Positions 36,552-46,305 of a stretch of 64,000 nucleotides of DNA are shown here, one piece after another. Origin of the DNA: Quadrisphaera granulorum (GTDB taxonomy: Bacteria; Actinomycetota; Actinomycetes; Actinomycetales; Quadrisphaeraceae); the NCBI RefSeq assembly GCF_003149145.1, contig NZ_QGDQ01000001.1, forward strand, positions 62,001 through 126,000, given 5' to 3'. A program made the translations under genes and the position numbers. Under the pieces are notes generated by a model. That model was not told the DNA's origin. It was given only the letters and a program-made list of their open reading frames with translations, and did not search any database. Within the stretch, counting starts at the first letter, position 1. Each line of letters begins with the position of its first letter.

Positions 36552-37484
36552 TCAGCTCGCGCGCGCCAGACCGCGGCGTGCCAGCACCCCACGCTCGATC
36601 GGCGCGAAGACGCACAGCTCCACGGCGATGCCCACCGCCAGGATCGCCAGGATCGCGACCATGACCACCTGCATGTCGGACAGGTCGCGGCCCTGCTGCA
36701 GCAGCGCACCGAGGCCGAAGCCCATCTCCCCGCCGATGGCGATGATCTCCGCGGCCATGAGCGAGCGCCACGAGAACGCCCACCCCTGCCGCAGGCCGGC
36801 CAGGTAGCCGGGAAGCGCCGCCGGGAGGATGACGTGTCGCACCAGTGCCCAGCGGCTTGCCCCGAGCACCGCGCCCACGCGGGGGAACAGCGGCGGCACC
36901 TGGTCGACGCCGGACACGAGCCCGTTGATGATCGACGGGACCGCGCCCATGAGGATGACGAAGTAGGCCGTGGCGTCGGACAGGCCGAACCACAGGATCG
37001 CCGCGGGGACCCACGCCACGGACGGCAGCACCTGCAGGCCGGAGATCAGCGGCCCGACCGCGGTCCGCACCGGACGCACTCGTGCCACGAGCAACCCCAA
37101 CGGAGTGCCGATGAGCACGGCCGCGACGAAGCCGACGCCACCGCGCTCGATGCTCGTGAGCACCGCCGTCGGCAGGCTGCCGTCGGCGATCCGCTCCTTG
37201 ATCGTGTACCAGACGTCGAGCGGGCTCGGGAGCACGTACCGCGGCTGGACCCCTGCGAGGACGACGAGCTGCCACACGACCACCACGAGGACCAGCGCCA
37301 CCAGCGGCGGCAGCAGGCGCTTGCGCCACCGGGTCGAGAGACCGGGCTCGGCGACCGGCTCGGTGGACAGGACGTCGAGGCCGGCCTCCAGGCCGCCGTC
37401 GCCGATGGTCGGGCGCTTGTCGCTCGTCGCGGCCACCGCGGTGCTCCCTGCTCCCGAGGTCCCAGCTGAGGGCTCAGCGGGCAT
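36552..37484 (-). CDS. ABC sulfonate/nitrate-type permease (SsuC/TauC family)
   Basis: The 310-residue permease has an N-terminal cytoplasmic stretch, about six spans and the EAA-type coupling loop around residues 220-245 (PALPGYLAGLRQGWAFSWRSLMAAE). It belongs to the family taking up sulfonates, taurine, nitrate or thiamine precursors. Adjacency to sir-cysHDN favours sulfonate or another organosulfur compound. ATG 37484 overlaps the ATPase stop by 11 bases, fixing a coupled start; upstream in-frame codons belong to the ATPase gene in another frame. It is the last gene before the tandem terminator. Confidence 0.88.
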   Translation of the reverse strand: MPAEPSAGTSGAGSTAVAATSDKRPTIGDGGLEAGLDVLSTEPVAEPGLSTRWRKRLLPPLVALVLVVVVWQLVVLAGVQPRYVLPSPLDVWYTIKERIADGSLPTAVLTSIERGGVGFVAAVLIGTPLGLLVARVRPVRTAVGPLISGLQVLPSVAWVPAAILWFGLSDATAYFVILMGAVPSIINGLVSGVDQVPPLFPRVGAVLGASRWALVRHVILPAALPGYLAGLRQGWAFSWRSLMAAEIIAIGGEMGFGLGALLQQGRDLSDMQVVMVAILAILAVGIAVELCVFAPIERGVLARRGLARAS

Positions 37485-38313
37485 GGCGGCGGATCTCCTC
37501 TCGCAGGTGGTCGGTGATCTCGATGGACAGCGCCGCGACGGCCGCGTCTTCGATGCGACGGCTGCCGCTCGCGTCAACGGCCCACTCCCGCACGATCCGG
37601 CCGGGGCGCGAGCTCATGAGCAGCACCCGCTCCCCGAGGCGCACGGCCTCGCGCACGTTGTGGGTGACGAAGACGACGGTGGTGCCGGTCTCGCGCCAGA
37701 TCCGCTCCAGCTCGCTGTGGAGCACGTCGCGGGTGATGGCGTCGAGCGCGGCGAACGGCTCGTCCATGAGCAGCACGGACCGCTGCTGACCTAGCGCGCG
37801 TGCCAGGGCCACGCGCTGGCGCATGCCACCGGACAGCTCGTGCACCCGCTTTCCGCCTGCCCCGGTGAGGCGGACCAGGTCGAGCAGGCGCTCCACCTCC
37901 GCGGGGCGCTCGCGGCGCGGCACACCGCGCAGCTTGAGCGCCAGGTCGAGGTTGCCCGCCGCGGTCAACCACGGGAACAACGCCGACTCCTGGAACATCA
38001 GCGCGGCGCCCGAGGACGGCACCTCCACGGTGCCCACCGTGGGGCGTTCCAGGCCCGCGACGAGCGAGAGCAGCGTCGACTTGCCGCAGCCCGAGGCACC
38101 GAGGAGGCAGACGAACGAGCCGGGGGCGACGTCGAGGTCGACGGTGTCGAGCACCGCCGGGCCACGGCCGTAGGCCTTGGAGACGCCGCGCAGGCGGACG
38201 GCTCCACCCGAGACGACCTGGGGGGCGCCCCCGGAGGTCGGAGCTGGAGCAGCTGACGCCACGTGCGGAGCCCCCTCAGTGCCGGCGCTGGTGCTGGTGC
38301 GCGTCGCGGTCAC
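37474..38313 (-). CDS. ABC transporter ATPase (SsuB/TauB family)
   Basis: The 279-residue ATPase has Walker A LLGASGCGKSTLLS, Q-loop MFQESALFPW, signature HELSGGMRQRVALARAL, Walker B VLLMDEPFAALD and switch His in FVTHNVREAVRL. All residues for ATP hydrolysis are present. An Ala/Pro/Gly-rich 35-residue N-terminus precedes the conserved domain. GTG 38313 starts three bases after the binding-protein stop. It energises uptake through the SsuC-like permease. Confidence 0.93.
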   Translation of the reverse strand: MTATRTSTSAGTEGAPHVASAAPAPTSGGAPQVVSGGAVRLRGVSKAYGRGPAVLDTVDLDVAPGSFVCLLGASGCGKSTLLSLVAGLERPTVGTVEVPSSGAALMFQESALFPWLTAAGNLDLALKLRGVPRRERPAEVERLLDLVRLTGAGGKRVHELSGGMRQRVALARALGQQRSVLLMDEPFAALDAITRDVLHSELERIWRETGTTVVFVTHNVREAVRLGERVLLMSSRPGRIVREWAVDASGSRRIEDAAVAALSIEITDHLREEIRRHAR

Positions 38314-38316
38314 GGT

Positions 38317-39495
38317 TCACTCCTCACCCAGGCCGGCGGCGGAGACCTTCGGGGCGCCGGCGGCCGTGAGCACCTCGTTGAGGAGGCGCAGGTCGTAGAT
38401 GCCCTGGAGGTCCACGGTTTTGGTGGTTCCGGCGGCGACGGCGTCTTCCAGCAGCTTGGGCAGCGTGGAGGCCAGGGGATCGTCGGTGATGGTGAGGTTG
38501 CTGAAGGCGCGGGCGATGACAGCCTCGCTGAGTGCCTTGGTGGTCAACGCCTTGATCTGCTCGTTCACCGCCGCCGGTGCGCCCGGGTCACTGGCGGCCC
38601 AGTCCACGGCCTTGACATGCCCCTCCAGGAGAGCCTTCACCGTCTCCGGGTGGGCCGCGAGGAACTCCGTCGAGACGATGAGGTGCGTCGTGAGGAACTT
38701 CCCGTCGGGCCACAGCGACTTCTCATCGACGAGGACGGTCGCCCCGGCGTCGAGGACCAGCCGCGAAGCCCACGGCTCAGGCAACCACGCGCCCTCAAGG
38801 CGTCCTTGACGGAACAGGTCCAGCGTCGAGGAGTTCTCGGTCGGCGTGATCGTGACGTCGCCTCCGGTACCCGACGTCGTGGTGGCCAGGCCCTGGCCGG
38901 CGAGCCAGGTGCGCAGCGCCACGTCTTGCGTACCGCCGAGCTGGGGGCTGGCCACCTGCTTGCCCCTGAGCTGCTCAGCGCTGGTGATGCCGGGCTGCAC
39001 CACCAGCTGGGCGCCGCCGGAGCACGCGCCAGCGATGATGCGCAGGAGGGTGCCGCCGCTCTTGGAGAAGGCGTTGATGGCCGGGCTGGGCCCGATGTAG
39101 GTGGCGTCGATGGCCCCGGCGGTGAGGGCCTCGATGGCTGCCGGGCCGGCGTTGAAGGCCTGGGTGCTGAATTTCGTGGATCCGAGCGCCTCGGCGAAGT
39201 AGCCCTGGGCGATGCCGGCGAGGGCGGCTGCATGGGTGACGTTGGGGAACAGGCCCAGCCTCAGCTCCGCGGCTGCTGTGCCGCCGGTGGTGGGCGCGGC
39301 CGACGTGGCAGCTGAGGTGGATTCGACGGGGCGGGAGCCGCAGGCTGCGAGGACGGGGAGGACGGCGAATGCGCCCAGGCTCCCGAGCACGGCCCGCCGC
39401 GACAGGCGGAACTGCTGGTATGACTGCTGGTGCTGATGCGTGACCGAGCCGCTCGCCGGCGGGCCGACGGACGGGTACGAGTGCGGGTTGGGCAT
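38317..39495 (-). CDS. Sulfonate/nitrate-type substrate-binding lipoprotein (SsuA-like)
   Basis: The 392-residue protein has a twin-arginine motif at 33-34 (RLSRRAVLGSLG) and a lipobox ending at Cys52 (VLAACGS), so it is probably exported by Tat and lipid-anchored. The mature part shows the SsuA/NMT1 pattern: RLGLFPNVTHAAALAG, NAGPAAIEALTAGAIDATYIGPSPAI, and GAWLPEPWASRLV. It would capture sulfonates or similar anions outside the cell. AGAGGAGA precedes ATG 39495, and 71 bases separate it from cysN, so it may be read from the cys transcript or its own promoter. The ligand is inferred from context. Confidence 0.88.
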   Translation of the reverse strand: MPNPHSYPSVGPPASGSVTHQHQQSYQQFRLSRRAVLGSLGAFAVLPVLAACGSRPVESTSAATSAAPTTGGTAAAELRLGLFPNVTHAAALAGIAQGYFAEALGSTKFSTQAFNAGPAAIEALTAGAIDATYIGPSPAINAFSKSGGTLLRIIAGACSGGAQLVVQPGITSAEQLRGKQVASPQLGGTQDVALRTWLAGQGLATTTSGTGGDVTITPTENSSTLDLFRQGRLEGAWLPEPWASRLVLDAGATVLVDEKSLWPDGKFLTTHLIVSTEFLAAHPETVKALLEGHVKAVDWAASDPGAPAAVNEQIKALTTKALSEAVIARAFSNLTITDDPLASTLPKLLEDAVAAGTTKTVDLQGIYDLRLLNEVLTAAGAPKVSAAGLGEE

Positions 39496-39566
39496 GGTGA
39501 TCTCCTCTGGGTGACGGGGTGGGTTGGTACTGGTGGGGTGGCTGGTCTGGCGTGGCCGGGGGAGCC

Positions 39567-40904
39567 TCAGCCGGCCCGCAGACCGGGGATCGGCGCTCCC
39601 GCCATCCCGGCGCCGAGGGTGGCGCCGTCGGAGGGGTCGATGAGCAGGAAGGCGCCCGTGGGGCGCAGTTCGCGGTAGGCGTCGAGGGGGAGCGGCTCGG
39701 CGGTGCGGACCACCACCCCGCCGATCTCGTTGAGGGCGAGCTGCCCGTCCGCTCCGGTGTGCTCCAGCGACGCGACGTCGAGACGGTCGGTAACTTCCCG
39801 AACGATCGCGCGCACGGTGCGCGTGCCGTGACGCAGCAGCAGGCGGTCTCCGGTGCGCAGCGGACGCTCGTGCAGCCAGCAGACCGTGCCGGAGAACTCC
39901 TGCACCGGCTCCGGTGCCCCCGTGACGGCGGCGATGAGGTCACCGCGCGAGACGTCGACGTCGTCGGTGAGCCGCAGCGCCACCGAGCGACCGGCGCCGA
40001 CCTCCTGGAGGGGCCCGTCCGCGGTGTCGATGCCCGCGACGCGCGTCCGCTGGCCGCGGGGGAGCACCACGACCTCCTCGCCGACGGCCAGGCTGCCGCT
40101 GGTGACCAGCCCGGCGTAGGCGCGGTAGTCGGTGTCGTGGTCGCGCAGGACGTACTGCACGGGCATCCTCGCGGCGCCGCCCGCGACGTCGTCGGCCACC
40201 GGGAGCTGCTCGAGCAGCTCCAGCAGCGAGGGCCCGTCGTACCAGGGCATCCGGTCGGAGCGGTCCGCCACGTTGTCGCCGTCGAGGGCGCAGACGGGCA
40301 CCGCGGTCAGCTGGTCGGCCCGTAGCCCGAGCTGCTCCACGAGCTGCGCGGCCTCGGCGTGCAGCTGCCGGAACCGTGCCTCGTCGAAATCGACGAGGTC
40401 CATCTTGTTGACGGCGAGCACGAGGTGCGGCACACCCAGCAGCGCCGAGACCGCCGCGTGCCGCCGGGTCTGCTCGACCACACCGTGGCGGGCGTCGAGC
40501 AACAGGACGGCGACCTGCGCCGTGGAGGCACCGGTGACCATGTTGCGCGTGTACTGGACGTGACCGGGGGTGTCCGCGAGCACGAACCGGCGCCGCGGGG
40601 TGGAGAAGTAGCGGTAGGCCACGTCGATGGTGATGCCCTGCTCCCGCTCGGCACGCAGGCCGTCGGTGAGCAGCGAGAGGTCGACCCGCTCCAGGCCGCG
40701 GTCGCGGCTGGTGCGGGTGATCGCGTCGAGCTGGTCGGCCAGCACGGACTTGGTGTCGTGCAGGAGCCGCCCGACGAGGGTCGACTTGCCGTCGTCGACG
40801 GAGCCCGCCGTGGCCAGGCGCAGCAGGGGCGCCTCCTGGGGCAGCAGCTCCTCGACGTCCAGCGTCGAGGTCTCGCGGGGCAGCTGGGCTGCGGACGCGC
40901 TCAT
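39567..40904 (-). CDS. cysN: Sulfate adenylyltransferase subunit 1 (GTPase)
   Basis: The 445-residue GTPase has G1 ATAGSVDDGKSTLVGRLLHD, the translation-factor G2/G3 region DVAYRYFSTPRRRFVLADTPGH and G4 NKMD. EF-Tu-like beta-barrel domains follow. With CysD it makes adenosine 5'-phosphosulfate (APS) from sulfate and ATP, driven by GTP hydrolysis. There is no fused APS kinase (CysC), which fits direct APS reduction by the CysH encoded upstream. ATG 40904 overlaps the cysD stop (ATGA), a coupled pair typical of this enzyme. Confidence 0.95.
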   Translation of the reverse strand: MSASAAQLPRETSTLDVEELLPQEAPLLRLATAGSVDDGKSTLVGRLLHDTKSVLADQLDAITRTSRDRGLERVDLSLLTDGLRAEREQGITIDVAYRYFSTPRRRFVLADTPGHVQYTRNMVTGASTAQVAVLLLDARHGVVEQTRRHAAVSALLGVPHLVLAVNKMDLVDFDEARFRQLHAEAAQLVEQLGLRADQLTAVPVCALDGDNVADRSDRMPWYDGPSLLELLEQLPVADDVAGGAARMPVQYVLRDHDTDYRAYAGLVTSGSLAVGEEVVVLPRGQRTRVAGIDTADGPLQEVGAGRSVALRLTDDVDVSRGDLIAAVTGAPEPVQEFSGTVCWLHERPLRTGDRLLLRHGTRTVRAIVREVTDRLDVASLEHTGADGQLALNEIGGVVVRTAEPLPLDAYRELRPTGAFLLIDPSDGATLGAGMAGAPIPGLRAG

Positions 40905-41833
40905 CAGAAGTAGCCCTCTCGCTTGCGGTCCTCCATGGCTGCCTCCGACAGGCGGTCGTCGGCGCGCGTGGCGCCGCGCTCGGTGAGGCGGCTGGCTGCG
41001 ACCTCGGCGATCACCGCCGCGTAGGTGTCGGCGTCGCTGGAGACGGCACCGGTGCAGGACATGTCGCCGACGGTGCGGTAGCGCACCGTGCGCCGGGTGA
41101 CCTGCTCGTCGGCCCGGGGGCGGCTCACGGGGGTGTCCGCGATGAGCATGCCGTCGCGCTCGAACACCTCGCGCTCGTGCGCGAAGTAGATGCTCGGCAG
41201 CTCCACGCCCTCACGGGCGAGGTACTGCCAGATGTCCAGCTCGGTCCAGTTGGACAGCGGGAACGCGCGCACGTGCTCCCCGGGGGCGTGCCGGCCGTTG
41301 TAGAGGTTCCACAGCTCGGGGCGCTGGCGGCGCGGGTCCCACTGGCCGAACTCGTCGCGCAGCGACAGCACGCGCTCCTTGGCGCGGGCTTTCTCCTCGT
41401 CGCGACGCGCCCCGCCGAAGACCGCGTCGAAGCGGTGCTCCGTGATCGCGTCCAGCAGCGTGGTGGTCTGCAGCGGGTTGCGGGTGCCGTCGGGCCGCTC
41501 GCGGACCCGCCCGGCGTCGATGGAGTCCTGCACGCTGGCGACGACGAGCCGCACGCCGTACCGCTCGACCGCGGCGTCGCGGTACTCGAGGACCTCGGGG
41601 AAGTTGTGCCCGGTGTCGACGTGCATCACCGGGAACGGCACCGGCACCGGCCAGAACGCCTTGCGTGCCAGGTGCAGCACCACCACGGAGTCCTTGCCGC
41701 CGGAGAACAGCAGCACCGGCCGCTCGAACTCGGCAGCGACCTCGCGGATCACGTGGATGCCCTCGGACTCCAGGGCGTCCAGCGCCGAGAGCGCTGCCGG
41801 GGCTGCCGGGCTCGATGACGTCAGCGCGCTCAC
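40904..41833 (-). CDS. cysD: Sulfate adenylyltransferase subunit 2
   Basis: The 309-residue protein has the PP-loop motif RPVLLFSGGKDSVVVLHLA and the family segments MHVDTGHNFPEVLEYRD, GGARRDEEKARAKER and the C-terminal EAAMEDRKREGYF. It catalyses adenylation of sulfate to APS with CysN. I take GTG 41833, which forms a GTGA overlap with the cysH stop, as the start; the GTG at 41848 would add five residues. The gene lies third of the four core genes in the sulfate-reduction operon. Confidence 0.95.
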   Translation of the reverse strand: MSALTSSSPAAPAALSALDALESEGIHVIREVAAEFERPVLLFSGGKDSVVVLHLARKAFWPVPVPFPVMHVDTGHNFPEVLEYRDAAVERYGVRLVVASVQDSIDAGRVRERPDGTRNPLQTTTLLDAITEHRFDAVFGGARRDEEKARAKERVLSLRDEFGQWDPRRQRPELWNLYNGRHAPGEHVRAFPLSNWTELDIWQYLAREGVELPSIYFAHEREVFERDGMLIADTPVSRPRADEQVTRRTVRYRTVGDMSCTGAVSSDADTYAAVIAEVAASRLTERGATRADDRLSEAAMEDRKREGYF

Positions 41834-42537
41834 GTGTGGATCCCGCACTCGGTCTTGGCGGTGCCCGACCAGCGTCCGCTGCGGGGGTCCTCACCGGGCG
41901 CCACGGCCCGGGTGCACGGCGCGCAGCCGATGGAGGGGTACCCGCGCAGGGTCAGCTCGTGGCGCGGCAGCTGGTGCTCGGTGATGTAGTCCTCCACGTC
42001 CTGCAGGGTCCATCGCACCAGCGGGTTGACCTTGACGAGGTGGTGCTTCTCGTCCCAGGTCACCACCGGGGTGTTCGCGCGGGTCGGGGCTTCGTCGCGG
42101 CGCACCCCGGTCACCCAGGCGCCGCGGCCGTCGAGCGCCTCGGCCAGCGGGAACACCTTGCGCAGGGAGCAGCACAGGCCCGGGTCGCGCTCGTGCAGGC
42201 GCGGGCCGTACTCGGCGTCCTGCTGGGGCACGGTGAGGCGGGGCAGCACGTCGATGACGCGCACGGGCAGCTCGGCGGCTACCCGGTCGCGCATCACGGC
42301 CGTCTCCGGGAAGTGGTAGCCCGTCTCCAGGAAGAGCAGCTCCACCCCCGGCAGCAGCTGCGCGAACAGGTGCGGGAGCACCGCGTCCTGCATGGACGCG
42401 GCCACCACGAGGTCGTGCCCGAAGGTGTCCACCGCCCAGCGGGCCACCTCCTGGGCGCTGGCGCCCTCGAGGTCTCGGCCGGCGGCCTCCGCCAGCGCGC
42501 GCCGCTCGTCCGCCGTCGTCGTCGTTGTTCCTGTCAT
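41830..42537 (-). CDS. cysH: APS reductase, 4Fe-4S type
   Basis: The 235-residue reductase has the cluster ligands Cys122-Cys123 and Cys205/Cys208 (LCCSLRK, GCAPCTR) and the catalytic Cys231 in the C-terminal TECGIHT. The CC...CxxC pattern marks enzymes that reduce APS directly rather than PAPS. Its product is sulfite for Sir. ATG 42537 overlaps the stop of the small zinc-ribbon gene (TGATG). An in-frame GTG at 42540 is also possible, and longer readings run through the zinc-ribbon gene. Confidence 0.95.
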   Translation of the reverse strand: MTGTTTTTADERRALAEAAGRDLEGASAQEVARWAVDTFGHDLVVAASMQDAVLPHLFAQLLPGVELLFLETGYHFPETAVMRDRVAAELPVRVIDVLPRLTVPQQDAEYGPRLHERDPGLCCSLRKVFPLAEALDGRGAWVTGVRRDEAPTRANTPVVTWDEKHHLVKVNPLVRWTLQDVEDYITEHQLPRHELTLRGYPSIGCAPCTRAVAPGEDPRSGRWSGTAKTECGIHT

Positions 42538-42710
42538 CACCGTGACTCCATCCCCACGGGGTGCGGCGCCAGGCCGTGCACCCTTACCGAGAACACCCGC
42601 AGGCACTCCCCGCACCGCCACGCCGTCGCTGCCGCCTCGTCGGGCCGCAGGTCCTCACCGGCGCAGAACGGGCAGTGCAGCGGCGTGCTGCGCCCGCCCG
42701 CCTCGCTCAT
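42537..42710 (-). CDS. Small zinc-ribbon protein in the sulfite-reduction operon
   Basis: These 57 codons encode a protein with two CxxC knuckles (LHCPFCAGEDLRP and WRCGECLRVFSV), a rubredoxin-like or zinc-ribbon pattern. Its ATG overlaps the sir stop (ATGA) and its stop overlaps the cysH start (TGATG), strong evidence that it is translated. Small CxxC proteins occur at this place in other actinobacterial sulfur operons; the function is unproven. It might pass electrons or metal to Sir or CysH. Confidence 0.85.
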   Translation of the reverse strand: MSEAGGRSTPLHCPFCAGEDLRPDEAAATAWRCGECLRVFSVRVHGLAPHPVGMESR

Positions 42711-44398
42711 CGGAGCTTCTCCTCGTCGGCGCGGGCCACCCACTGGGCGAACCGCTCGCCGTCCTCGCGCTCCTCGAGCCACGCACTCGTCACGCGCTCG
42801 ACGTAGTCGGGCAGCTCGCTCGCGGTGACCTTGTGACCGCGCAGCTTGCGCCCGAACCCCGCCCCCAGGCCGGTGGCGCCGCCCAGGTGCACCTGGAAGC
42901 CCGGCACCTGCGCGCCGTCGGCATCCGTGACGATCTGCCCCTTGAGGCCGATGTCCGCGGTCTGGATGCGGGCGCACGAGTTGGGGCAGCCGTTGACGTG
43001 CACCGTCAGCGGCTCGGCCAGGGTCGGCAGACGCTGCTCCATCTCGCTGACGAGGGCCGCTGCGGTGGCCTTGGTCTCCACGATGGCGAGCTTGCAGAAC
43101 TCCAGACCGGTGCACGCCATCGCGCCGCGGCGCCACGCGCTGGGACGGGCCTGCAGCCCGATCGCCGCGGCAGCCTCGACGAAGGACTCCACCTGCTCCG
43201 GCGCGATGTCGAGCACCACGAGCTTCTGGTGGGGCGTCGTGCGTACCCGCCGGCTGCCGTGCGCCTCCGCGGCGTCGGCGAGCGCCACGAGCACCGGGCC
43301 GCTGACGCGACCGACGACGGGCGCCAGTCCCACGTAGCGCAGCCCGTCGACCTGCTCGTGCACGCCGACGTGGTCGGGCTCGGCGGTCGGCACGGGAGCC
43401 GGACCGTCGAGCAGGGGACGGTGCAGGTAGTCGCGCTCGAGTACCTCGCGGAACTTCGCCGGGCCCCAGTCGGCCATGAGGAACTTCAGGCGGGCGCGGT
43501 TGCGCAGGCGGCGGTAGCCGTGGTCGCGGAAGATCCCGACGACGCCGGCCCACACATCCGGGACGTCCTCCAGCGGAACCCAGGCGCCGAGGCGCTCGGC
43601 CAGACGGGGGTTGGTGGACAGGCCACCGCCCACCCACACGTCGAAGCCGGGCCCGTGCTCGGGGTGGACGACGCCGACGAAGGCGAGGTCGTTGCCTTCG
43701 TGGACGACGTCGCCGCGGGGCGAACCGCTGACGGCCGACTTGAACTTGCGCGGCAGGTTGGAGAACTGAGGGTCGCCGATGAAGCGCTTCTGGATCTCCA
43801 GGACGGCGGGGGTGCCGTCGACCACCTCGTCGGCGGCGATGCCCGCCAGCGGGCTGCCGAGGACGACGCGGGGGCAGTCACCGCAGGCCTCGGTGGTGGA
43901 CAGGCCCACCGCCTCGAGGCGGCGCCAGATCTCGGGGACGTCCTCCACGCGGATCCAGTGCAGCTGCACGTTCTGGCGGTCGGTGACGTCAGCGGTGCCG
44001 CGGGCGAACTCCGTGGAGATCTCGCCGATGGTCCGCAGCTGCTCGGTGGTGAGCGCCCCGCCGTCGATGCGGACGCGCATCATGAAGTACTCGTCGTCGA
44101 GCTCGGCGGGGTCGATGCTGGCCGTCCGGCCGCCGTCGATCCCCGGGCGGCGTTGGGTGTACAGGCCCCACCAGCGCATGCGGCCCCGCAGGTCTTCCGG
44201 GGCGATGCTCGCGAAGCCCTCGCGCGAGTAGACCTCCTCGATGCGCTGCCGGACGTTCAGCCCGTCGTCCGCGGCCTTGAAGACCTCGTTGGGGTTGAGG
44301 GGGGTGCGGTCGCCCGTGGCCCAGGCACCGTCGCTGCGGGCAGCGCCGTCCCTCGGGCGCGCGGCGCGCGCGGGGCGGGGGCTGGTCTCAGCCGTCAT
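42707..44398 (-). CDS. sir: Ferredoxin-dependent nitrite/sulfite reductase
   Basis: The 563-residue protein has two ferredoxin-like plus sirohaem domain repeats (QNVQLHWIRVEDVPEIWRRL, HQKLVVLDIAPEQVESF). The C-terminal cluster cysteines are near residues 428-476 (CTGLEFCKLA and GCPNSCARIQ), which bridge the 4Fe-4S centre to sirohaem. It reduces sulfite to sulfide with six electrons from ferredoxin. Operon context (cysH, cysD, cysN) makes sulfite the substrate rather than nitrite. ATG 44398 has only a weak ribosome site; translation may depend on the upstream leader region. Confidence 0.93.
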   Translation of the reverse strand: MTAETSPRPARAARPRDGAARSDGAWATGDRTPLNPNEVFKAADDGLNVRQRIEEVYSREGFASIAPEDLRGRMRWWGLYTQRRPGIDGGRTASIDPAELDDEYFMMRVRIDGGALTTEQLRTIGEISTEFARGTADVTDRQNVQLHWIRVEDVPEIWRRLEAVGLSTTEACGDCPRVVLGSPLAGIAADEVVDGTPAVLEIQKRFIGDPQFSNLPRKFKSAVSGSPRGDVVHEGNDLAFVGVVHPEHGPGFDVWVGGGLSTNPRLAERLGAWVPLEDVPDVWAGVVGIFRDHGYRRLRNRARLKFLMADWGPAKFREVLERDYLHRPLLDGPAPVPTAEPDHVGVHEQVDGLRYVGLAPVVGRVSGPVLVALADAAEAHGSRRVRTTPHQKLVVLDIAPEQVESFVEAAAAIGLQARPSAWRRGAMACTGLEFCKLAIVETKATAAALVSEMEQRLPTLAEPLTVHVNGCPNSCARIQTADIGLKGQIVTDADGAQVPGFQVHLGGATGLGAGFGRKLRGHKVTASELPDYVERVTSAWLEEREDGERFAQWVARADEEKLR

Positions 44399-44530
44399 GG
44401 GTCGTGGAGCGCCTTCCGGTGCAGGCCTGCTGGCAGGGAGAAGCGCACGCGGGGGCGCACGCCGTGGTGCTCAAGGTGGCGCCCGCGCCGTGGACCGCCA
44501 GGAAAGTGGCTGGTCAGAGCGGGAAAGCCG

Positions 44531-44617
44531 TCAGCGTGAGGCCGGACAGACCGCGACGCTGCGCTGCCGGCACAGGTCGACGTGGCGACGAGCCACGAGC
44601 AGGAGGACGGCAGGCAC
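44531..44617 (-). CDS. Sulfur-operon leader peptide (RRHVDLC type)
   Basis: A 28-codon ORF with GTG 44617 contains ARRHVDLCRQRSVAVCPASR, the hallmark of short actinobacterial leader peptides found before sulfur-metabolism genes. Two cysteine codons are separated by seven residues. The start is six bases after CAAGAT, so the transcript is probably leaderless; the in-frame GTG 44596 is the other candidate. Translation stalling at Cys codons could tell the cell that cysteinyl-tRNA is scarce and open the sir operon, as shown for polycysteine leader ORFs in mycobacteria. The 132 bases before sir contain GC-rich inverted repeats (for example GCAGGCCTGC at 44421) that could form alternative structures. 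Confidence 0.8.
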   Translation of the reverse strand: MPAVLLLVARRHVDLCRQRSVAVCPASR

Positions 44618-44623
44618 GGGGGA

Positions 44624-44629
44624 ATCTTG
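44624..44629 (-). promoter_or_regulatory. Candidate -10 of the sulfur operon
   Basis: CAAGAT on the minus strand, six bases before the leader-peptide GTG at 44617. Confidence 0.35.
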
Positions 44630-44691
44630 CCATTCCTCGCGCGGTGGCACCACGAGCGTCAGCCGTCGCCCTGCGCGGGCGGACGGGAACC

Positions 44692-46305
44692 TCAGCGACG
44701 ACGCACGCCGAACAGGCTCCGGGTGATCTCGCGGCCGAGGCTGGAGGCGGCCGACCTCGCGAAGCTGCGGAACGCCGAGGACCCGAGCACCTGCTCCACC
44801 ACAGACCGCTCCTCCGGCTCCGCCGTCCGCCGTCCTGAAGGTCGCTGAGGGGTTGAGGACGACGACGACGGCGCCGGCTCCCGCTCCGCCGAGGGCCGCG
44901 CCGGCGCGGTGGTCTTGCGGGTGAGGCGCTCGTAGGCGGAGTCCCTGTCGATGGGCGTGCCGTACTCGGCCTGCAGCGGTGACGCGGCCACGATGCGCTG
45001 CTGCTCGGCCTCCGGCGCCGGTCCCATGAGGGACTGCGGCGCCCGCAGCCGCGTCCACGCGACGGGCGTCGGCACGCCGTTCTCGGACAGCACGGTCACC
45101 ACGGCTTCGCCGGTTCCGACGCTGGTGAGGAGGGTCTCGGTGTCGTAGTGGCTGCTCCGGGGGTACGTCGAGGCGGTGGCGCGCAGCGCCTTGGCGTCGT
45201 CGGGAGTGAACGCGCGCAGGGCGTGCTGCACGCGGGAGCCGAGCTGGGCGAGCACCTCCTTGGGCAGGTCCGTCGGGCTCTGCGTGACGAACACCACGCC
45301 GACGCCCTTGGAGCGCACCAGCCGCACGGTCTGGGCGACCTGCGCGACGAAGTCCTTGCTCGCTCCGGTGAAGAGCAGGTGTGCCTCGTCGAAGAAGAAC
45401 ACGAGCTTGGGCTTGTCGAGGTCGCCCACCTCGGGCAGCTCCTCGAAGAGCTCCGCGAGCAGCCACAGCAGGAAGGTGGAGAACAGCGCCGGGCGGCCCT
45501 GCACGGCGGGCAGCTCCAGGCAGGAGACCACGCCGCGCTCGCCGTCGTCGGAGCCGTCGGCAGGCACGGTGCGCAGAAGGTCGTGGACGTCGAGCTCCGG
45601 TTCGCCGAAGAAAGCGTCGGCGCCGCCGTCGGCGAAGGCCAGCAGCTCCCGCAGCAGTACGCCCGCGGTCTGCTTGCTCAGCCCGCCCAGGCCCTCGAGG
45701 TCGGCCTTGCCCTCGGGGGAGACGAGGTGGGAGATGACGGCGCGCAGGTCCGCGAGGTCGAGCAGCGGCAGACCTGCCTTGTCCGCCCAGTGGAAGACCA
45801 GGGCTAACGACGACGACTGCACCTCCGACAGGTCGAGCACGCGGGCGAGCAGTGACGGCCCGAAGCTCGTGATGGTCGCTCGCACGGGCACCCCCGTGCC
45901 GAGGCCGCCCAGCGCCAGCAGCTCCGTCGGACAACCGGCCGGAGCCCACTGCTGGCCGACGTCGGCGGCGCGCGAGGCCACACGGTCGGACGGCTGTCCC
46001 GGCAGGGCGATGCCGGACAGGTCGCCCTTGACGTCGGTGAGGAACGTCGGCACACCGTGGGCGCTGAGCTGCTCGGCGATGAGCTGCAGCGTCTTCGTCT
46101 TGCCGGTGCCCGTGGCTCCCGCGACCAGCCCGTGGCGGTTCAGCACTGACAGCGGCAGCTGCACGGGCGCGTCGGAGTGGGCGACACCGTCGACGACGAG
46201 CGCGCCGAGTTGCACGGCGGCGCCGGACGCGGCGTAGGCCTTGCGAACCTCGGCAACGAAGGCCGCTGCGCCGTTGTCTGCGCTGCTTGTCGGTGTGCTG
46301 GTCAC
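44692..46305 (-). CDS. HerA-like ATPase (DUF853 / helicase HerA-like C-terminal family)
   Basis: The 537-residue ATPase has Walker A VAGATGTGKTKTLQLIAEQL (about 48-67), TDVKGDLSGIA, Walker B KLVFFFDEAHLLF and the sensor region VVFVTQSPTDLPKEVLAQLGSR. It belongs to the DUF853 branch of the HerA/FtsK ATPases, found in many bacteria without its NurA nuclease partner; none is visible here. A Pro/Ser-rich linker (about 465-500) and a basic C-terminal tail end the protein. Its role is probably DNA-related but unproven. GTG 46305 is preceded by TAGCGT at seven bases. The next gene downstream on its strand is the leader peptide/sir unit. Confidence 0.88.
   Translation of the reverse strand: MTSTPTSSADNGAAAFVAEVRKAYAASGAAVQLGALVVDGVAHSDAPVQLPLSVLNRHGLVAGATGTGKTKTLQLIAEQLSAHGVPTFLTDVKGDLSGIALPGQPSDRVASRAADVGQQWAPAGCPTELLALGGLGTGVPVRATITSFGPSLLARVLDLSEVQSSSLALVFHWADKAGLPLLDLADLRAVISHLVSPEGKADLEGLGGLSKQTAGVLLRELLAFADGGADAFFGEPELDVHDLLRTVPADGSDDGERGVVSCLELPAVQGRPALFSTFLLWLLAELFEELPEVGDLDKPKLVFFFDEAHLLFTGASKDFVAQVAQTVRLVRSKGVGVVFVTQSPTDLPKEVLAQLGSRVQHALRAFTPDDAKALRATASTYPRSSHYDTETLLTSVGTGEAVVTVLSENGVPTPVAWTRLRAPQSLMGPAPEAEQQRIVAASPLQAEYGTPIDRDSAYERLTRKTTAPARPSAEREPAPSSSSSTPQRPSGRRTAEPEERSVVEQVLGSSAFRSFARSAASSLGREITRSLFGVRRR

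Follow-up and report, generated by a model that had tools for sequence, protein, structure and literature searches.

The closest described counterparts of the leader analyzed here come from mycobacteria, where polycysteine leaderless short ORFs act as cysteine-responsive attenuators, as reported by papers citing Canestrari et al. 2020 (PMC8764745). Earlier, Seliverstov et al. 2005 had described leader ORFs with Cys codons before the cys operons of Mycobacterium and P. acnes and before cbs of B. longum, which lack terminators, and had proposed Rho for the mycobacterial cys leaders as a weak prediction (PMC1262725). For the uORF preceding mycobacterial nirA/Msmeg_4527, the legend of Fig. 7 in PMC4633059 describes a leaderless mRNA.

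The window, that is, the whole 64,000-nucleotide stretch of Quadrisphaera granulorum DNA that was analyzed, contains a leader ORF of this general kind before a sulfite-reduction operon. As the original prediction stated, it is a 28-codon ORF that is easily overlooked and lies 132 nt before sir; the ORF, its length, and the gap to the sir ATG (44398) are all confirmed at 44617..44531 on the minus strand. The features of the locus are as follows.

44624..44629, minus strand: -10-like box CAAGAT, 6 nt before the GTG, read from the sequence; AAGATT, one base on (5 nt), also fits.
44531..44617, minus strand: leader ORF, GTG start, 28 codons plus a TGA stop.
44576..44590, minus strand: conserved R-R-H-V-D codons (motif R-x-H-[VI]-D), recognized from counterparts before sir.
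44570..44572, minus strand: Cys7 codon TGC, an optional position (Cys7 in 6 of 104 sir leaders).
44546..44548, minus strand: Cys15 codon TGT, the proposed sensing codon (14 in most relatives), from the TGT usage of relatives.
44399..44530, minus strand: stretch from leader to sir, 132 nt, C-rich and G-poor, in which no intrinsic terminator was found.
44412..44417, minus strand: weak Shine-Dalgarno-like GGAAGG, 13 nt before the sir ATG, read from the sequence.
42707..44398, minus strand: sir, ferredoxin-type nitrite/sulfite reductase (NF007125 and NF007126 best, both below their cut-offs).
41830..42621, minus strand: cysH, phosphoadenylyl-sulfate reductase (NF002537, 254 bits).
40904..41848, minus strand: cysD (TIGR02039, 458 bits).
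39567..40904, minus strand: cysN (TIGR02034, 542 bits).
38317..39495, minus strand: SsuA-like sulfonate ABC substrate-binding protein (TIGR01728, 155.5 bits, below the cut-off of 163.5).
37474..38313, minus strand: ABC transporter ATP-binding protein, taurine/sulfonate-like (best NCBIfam models below their cut-offs).

Translated, the leader ORF reads (V/M)PAVLLLVARRHVDLCRQRSVAVCPASR (window 44617..44531, minus strand), and we number its residues from the first R of RRHVDL, which is position 1. The mechanical ORF list conceals it within a longer open frame (44531..45949), and the preceding same-strand ORF (44692-46305, with weak HerA/TraD-type ATPase matches) ends 74 nt before its GTG. The two non-adjacent Cys codons that had been predicted are indeed present, TGC at 44572-44570 and TGT at 44548-44546. 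These positions, 7 and 15, are the only ones occupied by Cys, and the contiguous Cys run of polycysteine attenuators is absent. As a short ORF that precedes a sulfur gene and contains R-x-H-[VI]-D, the leader resembles the leader family as we define it here, with its TGT-encoded Cys at position 15 instead of 14, as in three other sir leaders. A sir match at E<=1e-20 was found in none of the five congeneric genomes searched, the window's own genome alone having one, and the sulfite-reduction operon (window 37474-44398) is, as judged from these matches, either gained here or lost in the congeners.

The original prediction had proposed a comparison of leader ORFs before sir in relatives, and such a comparison was made. 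We used 127 sir loci that were selected by sir, independently of leader presence: 121 hand-picked among the matches listed (227 class genomes with a match) so as to spread over genera, and six from the window's own family, including the window's genome. The same leader, defined as a short ORF containing R-x-H-[VIL]-D, occurs at 104 of the 127 loci, corresponding to 46 of 59 genera and 20 of 25 families, sequences not being independent within genus and family, while the same loose scan of the reverse strand yields two hits in 127. Combined with Cys at position 14 or 15, the motif occurs in a short ORF at 103 of 127 sir loci vs. none of 5080 base-shuffled upstream regions, and the leader is thus not a chance ORF; at loci with several candidate ORFs, those with Cys at positions 10-17 were preferred. 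The presence of R, H, and D in all 104 leaders is by construction, because these residues are required by the search motif. However, a narrower motif used first, which detected 62 of the 127 loci, turned out to be too narrow when a motif-free scan of the remaining 65, looking for leaderless short ORFs with Cys near the end, revealed leaders of the form R[RLM]H[VI]D[LYFHN] at the majority of these loci. The motif is therefore not only chosen by the search. As for a separate set of 80 sir loci, mostly from Streptomyces (the best 80 of 560 relatives, which may overlap the class genomes), 79 have a leader, and the 80th (L015) starts 113 nt before sir and is not judgeable.

The leader is missing at the other 23 of the 127 loci, which belong to families f1 (genus g4), f2, f4, f5, f38, f41, f45, and f47, and these include four of the six loci sampled in the window's own family. 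A sir operon can thus dispense with the leader, which counts against our interpretation. Two loci of family f38 (L292 and L324) exhibit polycysteine short ORFs before sir that are devoid of R-x-H-V-D (MRSATTTSPVMCCCMCCSA; ..VRCCMCCCS), which are apparently a separate solution.

Within the 104 sir leaders, position 2 is R, L, or M, position 4 is V (97) or I (7), and position 6 is L, Y, F, H, or N, while position 8 is mostly R (91) and position 11 mostly S (88). When one leader per genus is taken and cross-family pairs are compared, codons 1-5 have a pN/pS of 0.10, as opposed to 0.86 in codons 6-13 and 1.07 in codons 15-16, which argues that the first five residues are maintained as a peptide while their codons vary. 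The third base of codons 1 and 2 is free to vary, an observation that speaks indirectly against a DNA operator under the motif. The ARRHVDLC signature on which the original prediction was built does identify a family of actinobacterial sulfur-gene leaders, but its last residue has to be abandoned, and RRHVDLC was rejected as a signature: Cys7 is not conserved, being present in just six of the 104 sir leaders. In open-licence PMC text, we found no paper for RRHVDLC, and only an unrelated virus paper for RRHVDL. What is conserved is R-x-H-[VI]-D plus one Cys at position 14, or 15 in a few leaders.

This Cys is found at position 14 in 99 of the 104 sir leaders, at position 15 in four (the window's, L091 from the same family, and two from family f33), and only at positions 10 and 12 in the last one. 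It is encoded by TGT in 98 of 99 leaders at position 14 and in all four at position 15 (102 of 103 together), although these genomes are GC-rich and TGC predominates in them; when a single sir leader is kept for each of the 46 genera, 42 use TGT for C14 and one uses TGC, the other three being C15 or C10/C12 leaders. Streptomyces-type leaders use TGT for the conserved Cys in 79 of 79 cases, while the sir genes of the 80 mostly Streptomyces loci contain TGT seven times and TGC 420 times. The corresponding numbers of TGT and TGC are 82 and 479 in long ORFs of other loci, and 2 and 22 in eight genes of the window. We also collected 44 further leaders, some of which precede sir/nirA-type genes. All 43 of those with Cys14 have TGT there, vs. 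30 TGC and three TGT for their other Cys codons (Fisher p 4e-18), only the Cys14 codon being informative in this set, which was preselected by [AST]RRHVDL or RRHVDLC and by length. In the narrow-motif set with one leader per genus, the other Cys codons differ less strongly from the conserved one (24:1 vs. 12:9, p 0.003), which counts against our interpretation. The exception among the 44 is a RRHVDLC leader before an SDF-family symporter (L009 in G001, 1501-1542), which stops at position 13 and is the sole leader without Cys14. Codon 15, which follows TGT in leaders with Cys14, is never G-initial in the sir leaders of the 46 genera (C 33, T 7, A 6), but some of the further leaders do have a G-initial codon there (Ala in L197, L199, and L212).

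Counted from R1, 62 of the 104 sir leaders have one Cys codon. Several leaders of family f25 carry an extra Cys two residues before R1, and at least four Cys codons are found in seven leaders, all from family f12, such as RRHVDFKRVCTCCCLA. The suggestion that the sensing rule may differ because the Cys codons are not adjacent was thus half right: there is a constant, which is one TGT at position 14 or 15, but the non-adjacent arrangement is not peculiar to this genome, as the prevalence of single-Cys leaders illustrates. The genome of the window has 45 tRNA matches, with a sole tRNA-Cys whose anticodon is GCA, and UGU is therefore read by G-U wobble. Rare or wobble-read codons sharpen the sensing by leader peptides.

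An A2..T6 box 5-7 nt before an in-frame ATG or GTG was found for all 61 assessable narrow-motif leaders (shuffled expectation 9.2; n=62, L091 at a contig edge being left out) and for all 79 Streptomyces-type leaders (shuffled expectation 9.1), the best of several starts and spacings being taken, likewise in the shuffles. In the window stretch, promoter calling yielded no sigma-70 consensus promoter. This, the Cys at position 15 instead of 14, and a score under the NF042934 cut-off all count against our interpretation of the window leader. From the -10 spacing, we infer that the transcript starts at or beside the GTG, which would result in leaderless translation. This spacing agrees with the leaderless mRNA reported before nirA/Msmeg_4527 (PMC4633059). 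The reannotation of S. lividans based on transcription start sites, as presented in PMC8079986, lists eight leader peptides of which none is Cys-dependent, and this counts against our interpretation. Further upstream of the leader start, repeated TGGAC/GTCCA elements are seen in L010-L022 and in the class sir loci, partly as an inverted repeat GTCCAC..GTGGAC. By eye, they lie close to where the -35 of the leader promoter would be expected in Streptomyces and f25, and they are a possible operator of a sulfur regulator.

The leader is not restricted to sir. The window's genome has two more such leaders, with TGT at position 14, one before a rhodanese gene (L003) and one before a gene for a Cys/Met PLP enzyme (L005), both of which score below the cut-off of NF042934. 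Elsewhere, leaders precede genes for CysK-type enzymes, CysD, TauD, sulfatase, SAM synthetase, luciferase-like monooxygenases, flavin reductases, transporters, POR, and ROK. We identified the downstream families of 18 of the 44 further leaders and of the two loci in the window's own genome. Of these 18, eight have a direct tie to sulfur (NIR_SIR, TauD, PALP twice, PAPS_reduct, Cys_Met_Meta_PP, Sulfatase, and SAM synthetase), and among the other ten, one is without a match and nine are transporters, flavin enzymes, luciferase-like monooxygenases, POR, and ROK. In genus g40 (L201, L203, L211, L218, and L220), leaders lie 40-85 nt before look-alike genes, and the one of these five that was tested encodes a ROK-family protein with no obvious connection to sulfur.

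Between leader and sir, the base composition is biased. In the window, C accounts for 0.45 and G for 0.29 of this stretch (C-G +0.159), and C exceeds G in 45 of 45 genera. The mean C-G is 0.126 at sir loci with a leader (n=104; 103 positive), vs. 0.058 at those without one (n=23; 13 positive; p 0.002) and 0.046 in generic upstream regions (n=141; 93 positive; p 1.5e-11), for which gene starts were crudely predicted. It reaches 0.162 after the 44 further leaders, 39 of which are positive. C-rich, G-poor stretches favor the loading of Rho, and the excess of C over G after the leader thus fits Rho-dependent control. However, this step is not forced, since a stalled ribosome would cover just the start of the C-rich stretch. 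Folded jointly, the window leader and the stretch have -103.5 kcal/mol for 248 nt, and this strong absolute folding is of no help to Rho loading. It is like that of shuffles (z +0.30), and we have discarded an unusual RNA fold of the window leader region as a candidate. The Streptomyces loci (L010-L087) display, between leader stop and sir, a conserved CUGCGCA..UGCGCAG-type inverted repeat, GUCAGAGCCG, and GUCCCGAAGGAC around the sir Shine-Dalgarno (SD); these conserved blocks exceed what the leader requires.

Taken at face value, these features suggest that the leader ORF is probably a cysteine-responsive, ribosome-mediated attenuator of sir. Ribosomes would load on a leaderless mRNA at the GTG, without a SD site, and translate R-R-H-V-D before encountering, ten residues past D (nine in most relatives), UGU, a disfavored Cys codon that is wobble-read by tRNA-Cys GCA. 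When Cys-tRNA is short, the ribosome would wait at UGU, with four sense codons left before the stop and R-R-H-V-D inside the upper exit tunnel. If codon 14 occupies the A site, the P-site tRNA carries residue 13, and we take R-x-H-V-D to be 8 to 12 residues behind, in the upper tunnel, where the peptide might prolong the pause. With ample cysteine, the ribosome would instead finish and leave, which would expose the C-rich stretch and lower sir expression, most likely by Rho-dependent termination, the least certain step. A motif kept at a near-fixed distance from one rare codon, before many genes, is unexpected for a plain hungry-codon attenuator, and this suggests that the peptide aids the pause at UGU. 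The cysteine-responsive attenuation put forward in the original prediction is thus partially strengthened: the position of the leader, its conservation, and its Cys codon fit, and a mycobacterial precedent is reported by papers citing Canestrari 2020.

The same sensor could have another output. In translational attenuation, the SD of sir would be paired with the leader RNA and would be opened by a ribosome stalling on the Cys codon, and the M. smegmatis system is termed translation attenuation in a citing paper (PMC13236596). For codons 7-11, pairing with the sir SD of the same locus does exceed pairing with permuted SDs (P 0.023, 27 genera), but these codons were picked after 23 segments had been tested, uncorrected, and while they beat mismatched genera (p 0.02-0.03), they do not beat synonymous leaders (p 0.08 and 0.47). 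Three families account for the signal, namely f25 (10 genera, mean -3.7 kcal/mol), f1, to which the window belongs (two genera, -2.7), and f11 (one genus, -4.1), whereas five of 12 families are negative and the family-level mean is -0.10; the idea that the leader generally sequesters the sir SD was rejected as unsupported, only these three families favoring it. The Streptomyces consensus fold pairs AUGUCC (codons 9-10) with GGACGU, although these leader-SD pairs show no changes on both sides, which is neither for nor against pairing. Accessibility of the SD in 57 loci is not clearly leader-dependent (0.403 native vs. 0.435 stalled, p 0.09; 0.391 with a synonymous leader), and the fold of the window, with its z of +0.30, also speaks against pairing. 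Nor does pairing with the sir SD account for TGT, since the segments spanning codons 10-14, 11-15, and 12-16 pair no better than synonymous or mismatched ones. We consider this output rather unlikely and rank a Rho-type output slightly above it, claiming neither.

Three other explanations were weighed. Peptide leaders for amino acids offer a general precedent for classical attenuation, with an intrinsic terminator and an antiterminator after the leader, and PMC8632094 describes, before cysS in Rhodobacterales, a uORF that combines Cys codons with an intrinsic terminator. This is very improbable here because no intrinsic terminator was called in the leader-sir stretch of the window, runs of five T before sir occur in just two of 46 genera, and the leader region has no match to an Rfam family. 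Alternatively, the peptide itself might be the sensor, R-x-H-V-D arresting the ribosome upon binding of a small sulfur compound inside the tunnel, as in TnaC, with the Cys codon merely marking the arrest site. Such a role would suit a motif that is kept as a peptide, at a near-constant distance from C14, before many different genes, but it leaves unexplained both the near-absolute choice of TGT over TGC and the added Cys codons of the f12 leaders, and we regard it as improbable. The strong conservation of five residues could also reflect a small protein that acts in trans, the ORF being no attenuator. We see hardly any chance of this: between families there is little constraint on codons 6-13 and 15-16 (pN/pS 0.86 and 1.07), the ORF stays beside sulfur-related genes in many of the cases checked, and selection bears on the codon of the conserved Cys, not on the residue alone. 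Cysteine-responsive attenuation by a ribosome waiting at UGU thus remains our preferred reading.

In textbook leader-peptide attenuation, hungry codons suffice and the peptide is thought irrelevant. In the leaders described here, a single TGT codon is kept together with a peptide motif, at a near-fixed distance, over 46 genera. Should the peptide prove necessary, arrest peptides and attenuation by hungry codons would be the two ends of one mechanism. We tentatively propose, as a possibility that we would not call probable, that a one-codon cysteine sensor governs sulfur operons across much of the class sampled. R-x-H-V-D in the tunnel together with UGU in the A site at position 14 (15 in a few lineages, such as that of the window) would confer hypersensitivity to the charging of Cys-tRNA, a single rare codon thus replacing the codon run of ordinary leader peptides, and the polycysteine leaders of family f12 (including genus g25), which we take to be mycobacterial, would be a derived embellishment. 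The sequence pattern also provides a rule for finding candidate cysteine-controlled genes, which is R-x-H-[VI]-D with TGT about nine codons on in a leaderless short ORF, and annotation can miss such candidates, the window leader being just under the NCBIfam cut-off.

How does the leader compare with known systems? Against NF042934 (cis_reg_atten, "putative leader peptide"), it scores 25.9 bits in its 28-residue form, 21.9 in its 21-residue form, and 24.9 in a genome search, the cut-off being 27, and the shared motif region places residues 5-17 of the 28-residue form on profile positions 1-13 of 19. Being below the cut-off, it would probably be missed by automatic annotation, and the name of the family gives no mechanism. 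The scores are 16.2 bits for NF042936 (leader_Ms4527A) and 13.3 bits for NF042933 (leader_Ms5788A), both below cut-offs of 45, and no paper was found in open-licence PMC text for Ms4527A, Ms5788A, or Ms4533A. On the basis of these profile matches, the window leader is a low-Cys form of a family already modeled by NCBI (NF042934). This kind of leader is thus known, also from the mycobacterial nirA/Msmeg_4527 uORF, which is described as occupying the same place before sulfite reductase on a leaderless mRNA (PMC4633059). The new part is the one-codon rule, which we did not find in open-licence PMC text, although this does not show that the rule is unpublished, and Canestrari 2020 may already state part of it. 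The uORFC-8-2 before cysS in Rhodobacterales, as depicted in PMC8632094, is likewise a Cys-codon uORF for which ribosome-mediated attenuation is proposed, but it has tandem Cys codons, predominantly UGC, and an intrinsic terminator, unlike the window leader. The leaders of Seliverstov et al. are defined by runs of Cys codons near the stop, and the passages of PMC1262725 considered here mention neither R-x-H-V-D nor a single TGT. Genus g25 has the same R-R-H-V-D-F frame before sir, with Cys mostly at positions 10, 12, 13, and 14, whereas the window leader has Cys at 7 and 15 only. The short ORFs of the Canestrari type, as portrayed in citing papers, share with the window leader a leaderless-type start and Cys codons, and in their case cysteine availability controls the downstream genes. 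However, while their sensor is a set of contiguous Cys codons, the leader family described here has one TGT at a set distance from R-x-H-V-D, a single Cys counted from R1 being the commonest arrangement.
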